Assembly (NCBI GenBank): GCA_024643255.1
Contig: JAHENF010000003.1
Coordinates: forward strand, 38,255 to 102,254
Length of the DNA stretch: 64,000 nt
Source of the DNA: Ilumatobacteraceae bacterium
Lineage (GTDB): Bacteria; Actinomycetota; Acidimicrobiia; Acidimicrobiales; Ilumatobacteraceae
Direction: 5' to 3'
Positions 4,888-22,178 of this stretch are shown here, in pieces (within the stretch, counting starts at the first letter, position 1; the number at the start of each line of letters is the position of its first letter). The translations under genes and the position numbers were made by a program. Under the pieces are notes generated by a model. The model was given only the letters and a program-made list of their open reading frames with translations, did no database searches and was not told the origin of the DNA.

Positions 4888-5477
4888 AGCACACCCTTCG
4901 TCGAGGGCACACCGCCGGCATCGTCGATGCGCACGGCATCGCGCAGCGTCCGGGCGAGCCCCTTGAACGTCGCCTCGATGATGTGGTGGACGTTGCGGCC
5001 GCGGATCAGCTCGACATGCAACGTGATGTTGGCCGCCGTCGCGAAGGAAGCGACCGCGTGCTCGGCCAACTGCGGGTCGAACGCCGGATCGCCCAGCGCC
5101 AGACACTCGGGCAGCGGGACGTGCCATTCGACCCAGGGGCGCCCGGACAGGTCGAGTGCAACGTCGACGAGCGCCTCGTCGAGCGGGTACCGACCGCTGG
5201 CGAAACGGCGGACGCCCGACTTGTCGCCGAGCGCCTCGGCGAACGCCTCGCCGATGGCGATCGCCACGTCCTCCACGGTGTGGTGGGTGTCGATCTGGAG
5301 ATCGCCGACCGCCTGCACCCGCAGGTCGAACCCGCCGTGGCGACCGAGCTGGTCGAGCATGTGGTCGTAGAAGGGGATCCCGGTGGAGATGTCGGTGTCG
5401 CCCGTCCCGTCGAGGTCGATGTCGACTTCGATCGAGGTCTCCTTGGTCGAGCGGCGGCGCTGGGCGGTGCGGGTCAT
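4884..5477 (-). CDS. hisB: Imidazoleglycerol-phosphate dehydratase
   Basis: A monofunctional IGP dehydratase of 197 residues with no histidinol phosphatase domain, as usual outside Enterobacteria. Metal-binding histidine clusters appear as FYDHMLDQLGRHGGFD, DTHHTVED and NVHHIIEATFK. It converts IGP to imidazole acetol phosphate. The start at 5477 (MTRTAQRRRSTKETS) overlaps the hisC stop by 4 bp (ATGA). Confident by conservation and context. Confidence 0.96.
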   Translation of the reverse strand: MTRTAQRRRSTKETSIEVDIDLDGTGDTDISTGIPFYDHMLDQLGRHGGFDLRVQAVGDLQIDTHHTVEDVAIAIGEAFAEALGDKSGVRRFASGRYPLDEALVDVALDLSGRPWVEWHVPLPECLALGDPAFDPQLAEHAVASFATAANITLHVELIRGRNVHHIIEATFKGLARTLRDAVRIDDAGGVPSTKGVL

Positions 5478-6559
5478 ACGGTGACTCCATCGGTCGAGGA
5501 AGGGTGGGTGAGCACGTCGGCGAGCGCGGTCAGGAACGCGGTGTTCTCCTCCGGGGTGCCGACGGTGACGCGCAGGCAATCGGTGAGACGAGGCCAGCCG
5601 GAGCAGTCACGGATGAGCACGCTGTGGTCGACGAGCCCCTGCCAGACGGCGAGGCCCTGGCCCGGCCCGACGCGGAACAACACGAAGTTGGCGCCGCTCG
5701 GGAACACCTCGAGGTCCAGGTCGGACATCGACGCCACGATCCGCTCGCGCTCGGCAACGATGTGCTCGACGCGATCGTTCATGTCATCGGAGTACCGCAG
5801 CGCGAGCCGTCCGGCGATCTGCTTCACGGCATCGAGGTGGTACGGCAGCACCACCTTGTCGAGCTCGGCGACCAGCCAGGTCGGCCCCACGAGATAGCCG
5901 AGGCGGGCTCCCGCCATCGACCACGTCTTCGAGAACGTCCTCGTCACGACGAGCGGACGATCCTCGGCGACGAGGTCGAGGGCACTCCACTCGGCGAATT
6001 GGGCATATGCCTCGTCGACCACCACGAGGCCGGGCGCGATCGAGAGGAGCTGCATGACCCGCTCGACCGGCTCGACGAGTCCGGTCGGATTGTTCGGCGA
6101 GGTGAGGAACACGACGTGCGGGCGGTACTCGGAGACCACACGCTCGACCTCGGCGGGATCGAGCGTGAAGTCAGGGGCCCGCTCGCCCTCCACCACCGTT
6201 GCTCCGGTCACCCGGGCGATCTGGGCGTGCATCTGGTAGGTCGGTTCGAACGTCGCGACGGTCCTGCCGGGACCTGCATACGCGAGCAGCACCGTCTGGA
6301 GCACCTCGTTGGAACCGTTGGCCACGAAGATCTGGTCCGGGTCGACCCCGTGGAGCTCGGCGATCGCTGCACGCAGTTCGGTCGCCGCGCGGTCGGGGTA
6401 TCGATGCCATTCGACCCGGGACACCTCGGCTGCCACGGCATCGCGGAAGGCGGCCGGTGGTGGTTCGGGCGACTCGTTCGTGTTGAGGCGCACACGGACG
6501 TCGACCTGCGCCGAGTGATACCCGTCGAGGGCGCGAAGGTCGTCTCTGACGGGAATCAC
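5474..6559 (-). CDS. hisC: Histidinol-phosphate aminotransferase
   Basis: HisC (361 residues) is a fold-type I PLP aminotransferase that forms histidinol phosphate. The Schiff-base Lys211 lies in RTFSKTWSMAG; SPNNPTG (154-160), Asp182 and Tyr185 in VVDEAYAQF are also present. It heads the his operon here. The GTG at 6559 is preferred because it gives the family N-terminus IPVRDDLRALDGYHSAQ and because TACACT ends 7 nt upstream. An ATG at 6613 would collide with the divergent small gene. hisD, hisG and hisI/E are not in the window. Confidence 0.95.
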   Translation of the reverse strand: MIPVRDDLRALDGYHSAQVDVRVRLNTNESPEPPPAAFRDAVAAEVSRVEWHRYPDRAATELRAAIAELHGVDPDQIFVANGSNEVLQTVLLAYAGPGRTVATFEPTYQMHAQIARVTGATVVEGERAPDFTLDPAEVERVVSEYRPHVVFLTSPNNPTGLVEPVERVMQLLSIAPGLVVVDEAYAQFAEWSALDLVAEDRPLVVTRTFSKTWSMAGARLGYLVGPTWLVAELDKVVLPYHLDAVKQIAGRLALRYSDDMNDRVEHIVAERERIVASMSDLDLEVFPSGANFVLFRVGPGQGLAVWQGLVDHSVLIRDCSGWPRLTDCLRVTVGTPEENTAFLTALADVLTHPSSTDGVTV

Positions 6560-6566
6560 CGATCGA

Positions 6567-6572
6567 AGTGTA
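6567..6572 (-). promoter_or_regulatory. -10 element of his operon
   Basis: TACACT on the minus strand, 7 nt before the hisC GTG at 6559, so a leaderless operon transcript is predicted. It leaves little room for a leader-peptide attenuator. Confidence 0.45.
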
Positions 6573-6611
6573 GAGGGAGGCCCCGGCGGGGTCCCGGTAG
6601 GGTTTCGCTCC

Positions 6612-6815
6612 ATGGCCGGATCCGTCGAATCGACTGCCGCCGAACTCGCGGCGATCGCCGACAACGTGGCGCAGTATCGAAGCCGCGTCGGCGGGCTGGC
6701 CGAGCCCTGGGTCGGCTCGGATCGCGACGATCTGGTGGCCGCGATCCGCGAGGCCGAGCGTCAATTGCGCAACGCCGAACGCACGCTGATCAGGGCACTC
6801 CGCGCGGCCAGCTGA
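6612..6815 (+). CDS. Small helical protein of unknown function (67 aa)
   Basis: A 67-residue, alanine- and charge-rich protein with predicted helices and no cysteine, transmembrane or signal segment. The C-terminal half (REAERQLRNAERTLIRALRAAS) has a heptad-like pattern, suggesting a short coiled coil. I do not recognise a family. A TAGGGT hexamer ends 8 nt before the ATG, matching the leaderless pattern seen at neighbouring genes, which supports it as real. It is divergent from hisC and convergent with the 6C-like RNA. Confidence 0.5.
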   Translation: MAGSVESTAAELAAIADNVAQYRSRVGGLAEPWVGSDRDDLVAAIREAERQLRNAERTLIRALRAAS

Positions 6816-6852
6816 CGCCGCAGGTCAGCCGATCGAGCGGGACGACCGACCC

Positions 6853-6954
6853 GAAAATGCGGCGACGGCCCCTCGAAAGGGGCCGTCGCACAGTGCGAGG
6901 CCGGGAGGCGGATCCCAGCCGTCGCAGCAAACCAGGTGGCGGGAACCTGGTCAC
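6853..6954 (-). ncRNA. 6C-like small RNA
   Basis: On the minus strand, two hairpins with C-rich loops are followed by a strong terminator. Hairpin 1 has stem ACCAGGT/ACCTGGT (6951-6945 with 6937-6931) and loop UCCCGCC. Hairpin 2 has stem GGCUGGG/CCCGGCC (6920-6914 with 6905-6899, one G-U pair) and loop AUCCGCCU. This arrangement of two cytosine-rich loops plus a terminator is the definition of the actinobacterial 6C RNA family, whose loops are thought to bind G-rich ribosome sites of mRNAs. Identification rests on structure, not on a search. A good promoter lies just upstream. Start is estimated at 6954. Confidence 0.75.
6862..6889 (-). terminator. Intrinsic terminator of the 6C-like RNA
   Basis: A perfect 11-bp GC-rich stem (GCGACGGCCCC with GGGGCCGTCGC) around a 6-nt loop, followed on the minus strand by CGCATTTT. 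As a perfect palindrome it may also stop transcription from the small gene at 6612-6815. Confidence 0.75.
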
Positions 6955-6959
6955 AGAAA

Positions 6960-6987
6960 ACTATACACCTGAGTTGCACCCAGGCAA
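6960..6987 (-). promoter_or_regulatory. Promoter of the 6C-like RNA
   Basis: On the minus strand TTGCCT (6987-6982) and TATAGT (6965-6960) are separated by 16 nt. This is one of the few promoters in the window with a recognisable -35. It would start transcription about 6953-6954, just before the first hairpin. Confidence 0.6.
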
Positions 6988-7083
6988 GGACCTTGCGCCC
7001 GCACGCAGTTGCTCGTCAACGGGCCCGCCGGGGCGATCCGATCGACCCACCGGGCGCCCTGCAGCGGCCGGTACTCTCGACAC

Positions 7084-8013
7084 ATGCGTTGTCTCGAGAT
7101 CAAGCGCCAGATGGCCACCGACGAGATCGCGCACGTCACCGAACTGCTCGATGCCGCCGCCCGCGCCGACGGTCGCCGCCCGCTGTCGGATCACCTCTAC
7201 CTCGACCTCGTCAACGGTGGCCTCGACGGCTTCGCCGGGTTCCTCGCGTCCGAGCCGGGCCACGACCATCCGGTGGCCTACGCCCAGATCTCGCGCGGCA
7301 ACGACGCCTACGCGTTCGAACTCGTGATCCATCCCCACCACCGCTACGAGATGGCCACCCTCGGGCCCGAACTGATCGATGCCGCGATCGACGTCGTGGC
7401 AGGCGCCGGTGGTGGACTCGTCAACTGGTGGGTGTTCGAACCGACCTCGGCCCACGTGCAGCTCGCCAGCGATGCCGGCATGGCGCCCGGCCGGAGCCTC
7501 TATCAGATGCGCCGTTCGCTCCCGACGGGCCTCGATGTCACGGTGACGACGAGGGCGTTCGTTCCCGGTTCCGACGATCAGGCCTGGTTGAGCGTCAACA
7601 ACCGGGCGTTCGCCGGCCACGGCGAGCAGGGCGGCTGGACACTCGACACCTTCTGTCAACGCCAACAGGAGGCATGGTTCGACCCGGAGGGCTTTCGCGT
7701 CCACGACATCGACGGGCGGATGGCGGCGTTCTGCTGGACGAAGGTCCACGATCCGGCCGCGCGCGGCGAGGACCCACTCGGCGAGATCTACGTGATCGCC
7801 GTCGATCCCGACTTCCACGGACGCGGCCTCGGGAAACAGCTGACCCTGGCGGGCCTCGAGCACCTCGCCGGGCGCGGCATCACCGAGGCCATGCTCTACG
7901 TCGACGCGGACAATGTCGCCGCAGTCTCGCTCTACGAACAGCTCGGATTCAGGATCCACTGCACCAACGCGGCGTTCGTCGTCGACGTGGCACCGAGCGG
8001 CGGTGCATCATGA
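7084..8013 (+). CDS. mshD: Mycothiol synthase
   Basis: MshD (309 residues) acetylates Cys-GlcN-Ins with acetyl-CoA in the last step of mycothiol synthesis. It has two tandem GNAT domains. The C-terminal one holds the clear motifs LSVNNRAFAGHGEQGGWT, AVDPDFHGRGLGKQL (acetyl-CoA loop) and LYVDADNVAAVSLYEQLGF. TACTCT ends 6 nt before the ATG at 7084, so that start is favoured over an upstream in-frame ATG at 7009. It overlaps the next gene by 4 bp (ATGA) and leads an mshD-peptidase-rlmN operon. Confidence 0.93.
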   Translation: MRCLEIKRQMATDEIAHVTELLDAAARADGRRPLSDHLYLDLVNGGLDGFAGFLASEPGHDHPVAYAQISRGNDAYAFELVIHPHHRYEMATLGPELIDAAIDVVAGAGGGLVNWWVFEPTSAHVQLASDAGMAPGRSLYQMRRSLPTGLDVTVTTRAFVPGSDDQAWLSVNNRAFAGHGEQGGWTLDTFCQRQQEAWFDPEGFRVHDIDGRMAAFCWTKVHDPAARGEDPLGEIYVIAVDPDFHGRGLGKQLTLAGLEHLAGRGITEAMLYVDADNVAAVSLYEQLGFRIHCTNAAFVVDVAPSGGAS

Positions 8014-9857
8014 CGACGGCCGAGGTCGGACGCAATTCCGATCTCCCCACGTGGAGCGTCGCGGACGTCCACGACTCGCTCGACGCCCGGTCGTTCACCG
8101 ACGCGATGGAGCGATCGTCGGCCGACGTCGACCGCCTCGTCGCACTCTTCGACGAATTCGACATCCGTGCGCAGACGCCACGGCGTCCGAACGCCGCCGA
8201 CGCAGCGGCCGCCGATCGGGCGATCGACGAGCTCAACAGGGTGAGCGCCGAGTTGGCGATCGTGCGGGTGTACGCGTACTCGATCGTGTCGACCGATTCC
8301 CGTGACGCCCGTGCACAGTCAGCCCTCGCGGAGACCCGCCAGATCGACGCCACGCTGCGGCCATTGTCGGCGCGTCTCGCCGACTGGGTGGCATCGCTCG
8401 GCGTCGACGACCTCGCAATGCTGAGCGACGTCGTCGCCGAGCACGGCGGACCGTTGCGACGCCTCGCCGCGCGCGCCGAACATCAGATGTCCGAGGCCGA
8501 AGAGCATCTGGCCGCAGAACTGTCGGTCACGGGGAGCACTGCATGGGGGCGGTTGCAGAACGACGTCACCTCACAGCTGACCGCCGACGTCGAACTGCCC
8601 GACGGCACGGTCACCCTCCCCCTGCCCGCTGTGCGCGGGCTGGCGACCGACAACGACCCCGTCGCGCGTCGGGCCGCCTACGAGGCCGAGATGCGTGCCT
8701 GGCCGACGATCGAGGTTCCGGTCGCCGCCGCCATGAACGCCATCAAGGGTGAAGCGAACGCACTCAACCGTCGACGCCACTGGCCGTCGCCGCTCGAGGC
8801 GTCGCTCTTCGCCAACAGCGTCAGCCGCCGAACCTTCGATGCCATGCAGTCGGCCGTCGTCGGCGCACTGCCCGATCTCCGTCGCTGGATGCGCACCAAG
8901 GCAGCACTGCACGGGCATGACCCCGCCGACGGGCTGCCCTGGTGGGACCTCGTGGCTCCGTTGCCGTTTGCCGGTGCCGAGGTGCGCTGGGACGATGGGG
9001 TCGAGGTGGTGCGGTCCGCATTCTCGGCGTACAGCGACGAGCTGGGTGGCCTGGTCGACCGCGCGATCGATGAACGGTGGATCGACGCCGCACCGAGGCC
9101 CGGCAAGAGCGGTGGCGCGTTCTGCGCTCCGTTCGTCGGCGACCGATCGCTGGTGCTGCTCAACTGGGCGGGCTCGGCCGACTCGACCCAGACGACCGCC
9201 CATGAGCTCGGCCACGCGTACCACAACACCACGCTGGCTGACCGGACGCCGCTGCAGCGACAGCTCCCCATGGCGCTGGCCGAGACCGCCAGCATCTTCT
9301 GTGAGACCCTCGTCGTGGAAGCAGGCCTCGCCCGGATGTCGGGCACCGATCGCCTCGCCCAGCTCGACGTCGATCTCGTCGGCACCAACCAGGTCGTCGT
9401 CGACATCCACTCACGATTCCTGTTCGAGACCGAGGTGTTCGCCCGTCGCCGCCGCCGGACGCTCAGCGCCGACGAACTGAGCGAGATGATGACCGAGGCA
9501 CAGGCAGCGGCCTATGGCGACGGCCTCGACCAGCGAAGCGCTCATCGGTACATGTGGCTGCTCAAACCGCACTACTACGGCTCGCACTTCTACAACTGGC
9601 CGTACACGTACGGGTTGTTGTTCGGCCTCGGCCTGTTCGCCCGGTACCAGGACGATCCGGAGCACTTCCGCTCCGGCTACGACGACCTGTTGTCACGTGC
9701 CGGAATGGACACGGCGGAGGAGCTGGGCATGTCGTTCGGACTCGACGTCACCGATGAGGCGTTCTGGACAGCGAGCCTCGACGTGGTGCGCACCCGCATC
9801 GACGACTACGTCACGCTCGCGCATACCGCGCTCGGTGAACCGGGCGGTGCCGCATGA
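8010..9857 (+). CDS. M3-family zinc metallopeptidase (oligoendopeptidase F-like)
   Basis: A 615-residue cytoplasmic oligopeptidase-type protein. The zinc motif HELGHAYH is at 398-405, and a downstream Glu in MALAETASIFCE is the expected third ligand. The C-terminal segment with HRYMWLLKPHYYGSHFYNWPYTYG supplies the conserved His and Tyr residues typical of M3 enzymes such as PepF. No signal peptide is present. It probably trims short peptides. Start and stop overlap mshD and rlmN by 4 bp, so the three are translationally coupled. Confidence 0.92.
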   Translation: MTTAEVGRNSDLPTWSVADVHDSLDARSFTDAMERSSADVDRLVALFDEFDIRAQTPRRPNAADAAAADRAIDELNRVSAELAIVRVYAYSIVSTDSRDARAQSALAETRQIDATLRPLSARLADWVASLGVDDLAMLSDVVAEHGGPLRRLAARAEHQMSEAEEHLAAELSVTGSTAWGRLQNDVTSQLTADVELPDGTVTLPLPAVRGLATDNDPVARRAAYEAEMRAWPTIEVPVAAAMNAIKGEANALNRRRHWPSPLEASLFANSVSRRTFDAMQSAVVGALPDLRRWMRTKAALHGHDPADGLPWWDLVAPLPFAGAEVRWDDGVEVVRSAFSAYSDELGGLVDRAIDERWIDAAPRPGKSGGAFCAPFVGDRSLVLLNWAGSADSTQTTAHELGHAYHNTTLADRTPLQRQLPMALAETASIFCETLVVEAGLARMSGTDRLAQLDVDLVGTNQVVVDIHSRFLFETEVFARRRRRTLSADELSEMMTEAQAAAYGDGLDQRSAHRYMWLLKPHYYGSHFYNWPYTYGLLFGLGLFARYQDDPEHFRSGYDDLLSRAGMDTAEELGMSFGLDVTDEAFWTASLDVVRTRIDDYVTLAHTALGEPGGAA

Positions 9858-22105: not shown

Positions 22106-22178
22106 TGGGCGATGGGAGTCTCGATCTCCCGACCTCCACGGTGTGAACGTGGCGCTCTTCCAGCTGAGCTAATCGCCC
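22106..22178 (-). tRNA. tRNA-Val (anticodon CAC)
   Basis: The minus strand folds as a 73-nt cloverleaf. The acceptor stem is GGGCGAT/ATCGCCC, the D arm contains TTAGCTCAGCTGGAAGAGC, and the anticodon stem CCACG/CGTGG encloses TTCACAC, giving anticodon CAC (reads GUG). The T arm shows GGGAG, TCGAGAC-type loop and CTCCC. The discriminator is A; CCA is not encoded. It lies between two minus-strand genes. Confidence 0.95.

Follow-up and report, generated by a model that had tools for sequence, protein, structure and literature searches.

A conserved small RNA gene with two C-rich loops beside the his genes of Acidimicrobiales

The 6C RNAs of actinobacteria are characterized by two hairpins, the loops of which each contain about six consecutive cytosines (PMC4046766). 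In B11, the mycobacterial 6C RNA, the second C-rich loop sits on the terminator hairpin (PMC12395582). Either loop of B11 is enough for repression in M. abscessus (PMC10470900), and in M. marinum the effect is carried by the terminator loop alone (PMC12395582). C-rich-loop small RNAs of other Gram-positive bacteria recognise G tracts or Shine-Dalgarno sequences by base pairing (PMC10470900, PMC12395582, PMC3961350), and for the UCCC motifs of LhrC of Listeria and of the Rsa RNAs of Staphylococcus aureus pairing with Shine-Dalgarno regions has been proposed or demonstrated (PMC4132741, PMC3961350).

The RNA described here is encoded next to the his genes of an Ilumatobacteraceae bacterium, in a stretch of 64,000 nucleotides which was analysed as a whole and is referred to as the window. 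It resembles 6C and B11 in that it is predicted to be a free-standing actinobacterial small RNA of about 100 nt, with its own promoter and terminator and with two C-rich-loop hairpins that may be redundant. Unlike 6C, it is not matched by the 6C model and its loops contain CCCGCC and UCCGCC, not six or more cytosines, and unlike both 6C and B11 it has its terminator as a separate third hairpin with a loop of the UUCG/GCAA type. The C-rich loops may also be compared with the UCCC motifs of LhrC and the Rsa RNAs, although the sequences and hosts are unrelated and the putative seeds of the present RNA contain G, with a fixed core CCGCC.

Layout and conservation of the RNA gene

A sequence-only reading had described TTGCCT and TATAGT separated by 16 nt, two hairpins, an 11-bp terminator stem and CATTTT on the minus strand, and all of these were found to be exact on direct reading (Table 1). 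The TTGCCT/TATAGT pair was the only sigma-70-like site in the 3 kb scanned for promoters (5400-8400), where 0.2 would be expected, and transcription is predicted to start at about 6952-6954 on the minus strand. The predicted RNA had a folding energy of -60.6 kcal/mol, compared to -39.0 ± 3.4 kcal/mol for dinucleotide shuffles (z = -6.3), and none of the 200 shuffles was as good. On the 3' side of the terminator stem the sequence reads CGCATTTT to 6854, the tail including CATTTT being CGCAUUUU. The terminator hairpin was not flagged by a simple terminator scanner, because the tail consists of four T only, after CGCA.

Table 1 Features of the RNA gene and its neighbours in the window
Feature	Position	Strand	Basis and details
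hisC	5474-6604	minus	first his gene on this side; aminotransferase match
Small convergent ORF, 66 aa (ORF66)	6612-6812	plus	conserved neighbour, not part of the RNA
Predicted small RNA gene, ~98-102 nt	6853-6954	minus	fold and match of covariance model R1
Intrinsic terminator, 11-12 bp stem, UUCG loop, UUUU tail	6854-6889	minus	sequence, fold, covariation; perfect 11-bp stem 6889-6879/6872-6862, 12 bp if U-A closes the UUCG loop
Hairpin 2, 11-bp stem with a single bulged C, loop AUCCGCCU 6913-6906	6895-6925	minus	fold, alignment, covariation; GCGA(c)GGCTGGG 6925-6914, loop ATCCGCCT 6913-6906, CCCGGCC/TCGC 6905-6895
Hairpin 1, 7-8 bp	6930-6952	minus	fold, alignment, covariation; ACCAGGT 6951-6945, loop TCCCGCC 6944-6938, ACCTGGT 6937-6931
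-10 box TATAGT	6965-6960	minus	16-nt spacer from TTGCCT; [T/C]AnnnT kept among homologs
-35 box TTGCCT	6987-6982	minus	promoter scan; TTG kept among homologs
GNAT acetyltransferase, mycothiol-synthase-like, divergent neighbour	7084-8013	plus	Pfam Acetyltransf_1

BLASTN against 201 genomes of the same family gave clear matches in about 50, the rest being a long tail of chance matches near E = 1. A covariance model, R1, was built from the sequences of 44 BLASTN-derived relatives with the window sequence among the seed members, so that its score on the window (102.8 bits at 6852-6954) follows from the construction. When the collected loci were searched with R1, 84 matches were obtained in Acidimicrobiales, 74 of them distinct. 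Loci anchored on hisC identified Ilumatobacter and other Acidimicrobiia as carriers.

Covariation was scored for the 74 distinct homologs on a structure written by hand, with an alignment biased towards the model. Double-sided changes were found in 26 of the 29 base pairs. Compensatory changes in relatives, the absence of which would by the sequence-only reading have refuted the proposal, do occur, and they were seen also in an ungapped table around the loops. In total 89.9 % of the cells were paired, and sliding the partners by 1-3 columns lowered this to 35-46 %. The covariation score was 0.376, compared to 0.158 for shuffled and at most 0.076 for slid partners. The terminator had 98.2 % of its cells paired and double-sided changes in all ten pairs, and hairpin 1 had 94.9 % paired and such changes in seven of eight pairs. 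For hairpin 2, the outer stem of which is misaligned in a bulged clade, the changes were found in 9 of 11 pairs.

In the alignment the stems are variable and the loops near-invariant, an exact TCCCGCC loop 1 occurring together with an exact loop 2 in 67 of the 74 homologs. The motif common to the loops of hairpin 1 (UCCCGCC) and hairpin 2 (AUCCGCC) is YCCGCC, and as loop 2 is itself UCCCGCC, the motif of loop 1, in two homologs (L109 and L122), the loops give the impression of a single seed present in two near-redundant copies. A -10 box, [T/C]AnnnT, lies 4-16 nt 5' of hairpin 1 in 61 of the 74 homologs (14-19 in controls), and TTG is found at the matching -35 position in 35 (2-4 in shuffled or shifted controls). 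The conserved -10 box and the covariation thus support the original proposal of a free-standing small RNA that adjoins the his operon, has a promoter of its own and is made up of two hairpins with C-rich loops and an intrinsic terminator.

A GTG near the predicted start opens a reading frame in the window, as a short protein-coding gene would require. However, all distances from 28 to 34 nt occur between the two loops among the homologs, so that no frame is kept; neither this spacing nor the total length (95-111 nt) varies in multiples of three, and the substitutions track base pairing, not codons. A coding gene is thus hardly credible. Judged from sequence conservation, which is far beyond chance, the minus-strand element at 6853-6954 is a real small-RNA gene.

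Comparison with 6C and other Rfam families

The RNA had been assigned to the 6C family in the sequence-only reading. The Rfam 6C model (RF01066, cut-off 47 bits) gave no match in the window at the gathering threshold and none up to E = 10 in 6780-7080. Five homologous loci were likewise not matched by the model, which in the same test matched the locus L002. Conversely, four strong 6C loci scored no higher than 10.3 bits with R1. L002 (C3:3125-3201 of G086, an Acidimicrobiales genome) is the only 6C match in 100 relatives searched; it scores 47.5 bits, and its loops are CCCCC and CCCCCC, the second on the terminator hairpin. The same contig of G086 also carries the Acidimicrobiales RNA about 60 kb away (C3:63328, 35.4 bits), where a GGGATCCGCCGCCC hairpin and a terminator can be recognised. 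An orthologue should replace 6C in a genome, but G086 holds both as separate genes.

The loop sequences and the layout also differ from those of 6C. UCCCGCC and AUCCGCC hold an invariant G and no more than three consecutive C, and both loops are upstream of the terminator, which, as a third hairpin with a UUCG-like loop, does not correspond to the C-rich terminator hairpin of B11. What agrees with 6C are the conserved signals of a free-standing gene of about 100 nt with a promoter and an intrinsic terminator, the transcript being predicted.

A strongly diverged 6C member would have the like size, own promoter, two C-rich-loop hairpins and actinobacterial hosts that are seen here. The distribution is also nearly complementary, as among 296 genomes of the phylum 6C was found in 23 and the Acidimicrobiales RNA in 12, with no overlap. 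Nevertheless, such a diverged member is very improbable when set against the failure of each model on the loci of the other, the terminator hairpin without a C-rich loop and the two separate genes of G086. By these sequence comparisons the Acidimicrobiales RNA is not a 6C RNA, although a distant common ancestry is conceivable, and we are nearly certain that the RNA gene is both real and separate from 6C.

None of the 4227 families of Rfam 15 reached its cut-off on this RNA. The best raw score was obtained with CcsR1 (RF02791), which shares the layout of hairpins and terminator and a C-rich motif. At 20.8 bits, compared to a gathering score of 65.3, and with the CCUCCUCCC motif absent, it was taken as a chance match. 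The searches turned up neither a curated family of such small RNAs for Acidimicrobiales nor, in the open-licence literature, any paper on Ilumatobacter small RNAs, and on the basis of these two sources, Rfam 15 and open-licence papers, the family appears to be undescribed. The sole Rfam match at the gathering threshold in the window is a tRNA gene at 22106-22178 (minus strand).

Distribution and chromosomal place

The RNA was found, in one copy each, in 61 of 295 sampled genomes of the class, 60 of which are within Acidimicrobiales. In the carrier from another order (G357) the assembly is fragmented and the RNA lies on a short contig. All 12 carriers in the phylum sample of Actinomycetota belong to Acidimicrobiales. 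Both samples were scored with strict filters, which makes the absences approximate. When 24 genomes, of which 23 had lacked a strict match, were searched with higher sensitivity, no further convincing copy turned up. In relatives with small genomes the model gave weak matches (L123-L130), which do not have the two C-rich loops and look like unrelated terminators or chance, and the sole extra match of a phylum-wide pattern search (G776), which has a long gap and no apparent hairpin arms, was also judged to be chance. Within the family, the sampled carriers mostly have genomes of 3-5 Mb and the non-carriers of 1.6-2.8 Mb, a trend seen in one sample only and to which one carrier of 1.8 Mb (G004) is an exception.

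The usual gene order is nth, the RNA, a small convergent ORF, and hisD and/or hisC, and it is seen in nearly all of the 84 loci when genes that are absent or outside the fetched stretch are allowed for. In the window nth and hisD do not adjoin the RNA; nth was undetected beside the RNA in 17 loci, the window included. The minus strand between 6604 and 2763 carries hisC, followed by genes which we take to be hisB, hisH, hisA and hisF, the aminotransferase match backing hisC only. The divergent acetyltransferase gene is presumably mshD. The protein of ORF66 had no Pfam match; proteins of this type have about 63-71 aa, and in the majority of Acidimicrobiales loci their genes converge with the RNA; in seven loci they are reversed.

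It could be argued from the location kept between nth and ORF66/hisD/hisC, and from the strand shared with his in most genomes, that the RNA is a cis element, i.e. a his leader or attenuator, the 3' end of nth or an antisense RNA to ORF66. This is most improbable, given that the RNA has its own conserved -10 box and its own terminator, that the hisC start of the window is about 250 nt further on with the convergent ORF66 in between, and that nth is not seen beside the RNA in the 17 loci mentioned. In addition, L085 and L098 (genomes G333 and G480) have only the RNA reversed with respect to nth and hisD. These inversions, together with the seven flips of ORF66, mean that the location is conserved and the relative orientation variable, as would fit an independent transcription unit and not a his leader or nth tail.

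Possible mode of action

As a whole, the observations are probably best explained by a small RNA of a separate family that acts in trans through its loops. This free-standing, single-copy RNA of Acidimicrobiales, about 100 nt long and made from its own promoter to its own intrinsic terminator, would present the near-identical YCCGCC on two hairpins as two near-redundant seeds. The seeds would pair with G-rich GGCGGR stretches in a modest set of mRNAs, and the pairing would lower translation or stability of the targets in the manner of 6C/B11, LhrC and the Rsa RNAs. By analogy with these RNAs, we lean towards the view that the RNA acts mainly by pairing of its loops with mRNAs, and pairing with G-rich translation-initiation sites is plausible.

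Such sites had been proposed as targets in the sequence-only reading. The target tests drew on parts of three genomes, G014, G062 and G091. The 25 nt upstream of starts were analysed in two carriers of the RNA, with 1.2 Mb of sequence from G014 and 0.8 Mb from G062. The starts came from a home-made gene finder and were considered usable since the gene calls show a clear Shine-Dalgarno peak. No enrichment was found in G014 (GGCGGG 12 compared to 13.6 expected, GGCGGA 10 compared to 9.2) or in G062 (38 compared to 31.8 and 12 compared to 9.7, respectively), and the energies of the loop duplexes were not above those of reversed loops. A genome-wide preference for translation starts thus received no support from these two genomes. 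A small target set would escape an enrichment test of this kind. Three genes with the motif were common to G014 and G062, compared to 0.8 expected, which is too few to argue from, and the tests established no target shared between species.

Since the loop complements are not enriched and the loop duplexes are no better than reversed ones, a protein partner is a serious rival to mRNA pairing. The shared YCCGCC loops might titrate or deliver an RNA-binding protein, and one near-invariant loop motif on two hairpins, the stems of which covary freely, would suit this role. CsrB/RsmZ RNAs titrate or deliver CsrA through a different motif. However, no candidate protein is known for the Acidimicrobiales RNA, and pairing with mRNAs through C-rich loops is an established design among Gram-positive small RNAs; we regard protein binding as possible but doubtful.

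With trans-acting pairing through the loops still preferred, a wider proposal can be made tentatively: an Acidimicrobiales-wide family might hold the place that 6C has elsewhere in Actinomycetota, with interchangeable YCCGCC loops and mostly missing from the sampled small-genome members, and might act via a partner protein or a small, conserved group of target mRNAs, not by general masking of Shine-Dalgarno sequences.

A single-copy, syntenic RNA with a strongly supported structure lends itself well to transcript and knockout studies, and R1 provides a ready covariance model for annotation. The carriers are an order of soil and aquatic actinobacteria with the RNA at the same chromosomal spot, and comparison with 6C bears on how C-rich-loop regulation arises in G+C-rich bacteria.

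A WhiB-family gene was considered as a conserved target and rejected. Its leader in Ilumatobacteraceae has GGGAACC, which is partly complementary to GGUUCCC of hairpin 1, but reads as a promoter. Many WhiB genes of this family (loci L262-L289) have GGGAACC about 17 nt before CGTC in an ECF-sigma-like arrangement, which we take to be the -35 and -10 elements of an ECF-sigma promoter, and the box would therefore not be in the mRNA.

The sequence-only reading had added that the many leaderless genes should escape pairing at translation starts; that the window has many such genes is plausible. Shine-Dalgarno-like sites precede 20 % of the 55 genes called in the window, barely above the 15 % of the control. 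TAnnnT ends 5-10 nt before the start in 22 % of these genes, compared to 2 % in the control, suggesting many leaderless mRNAs.
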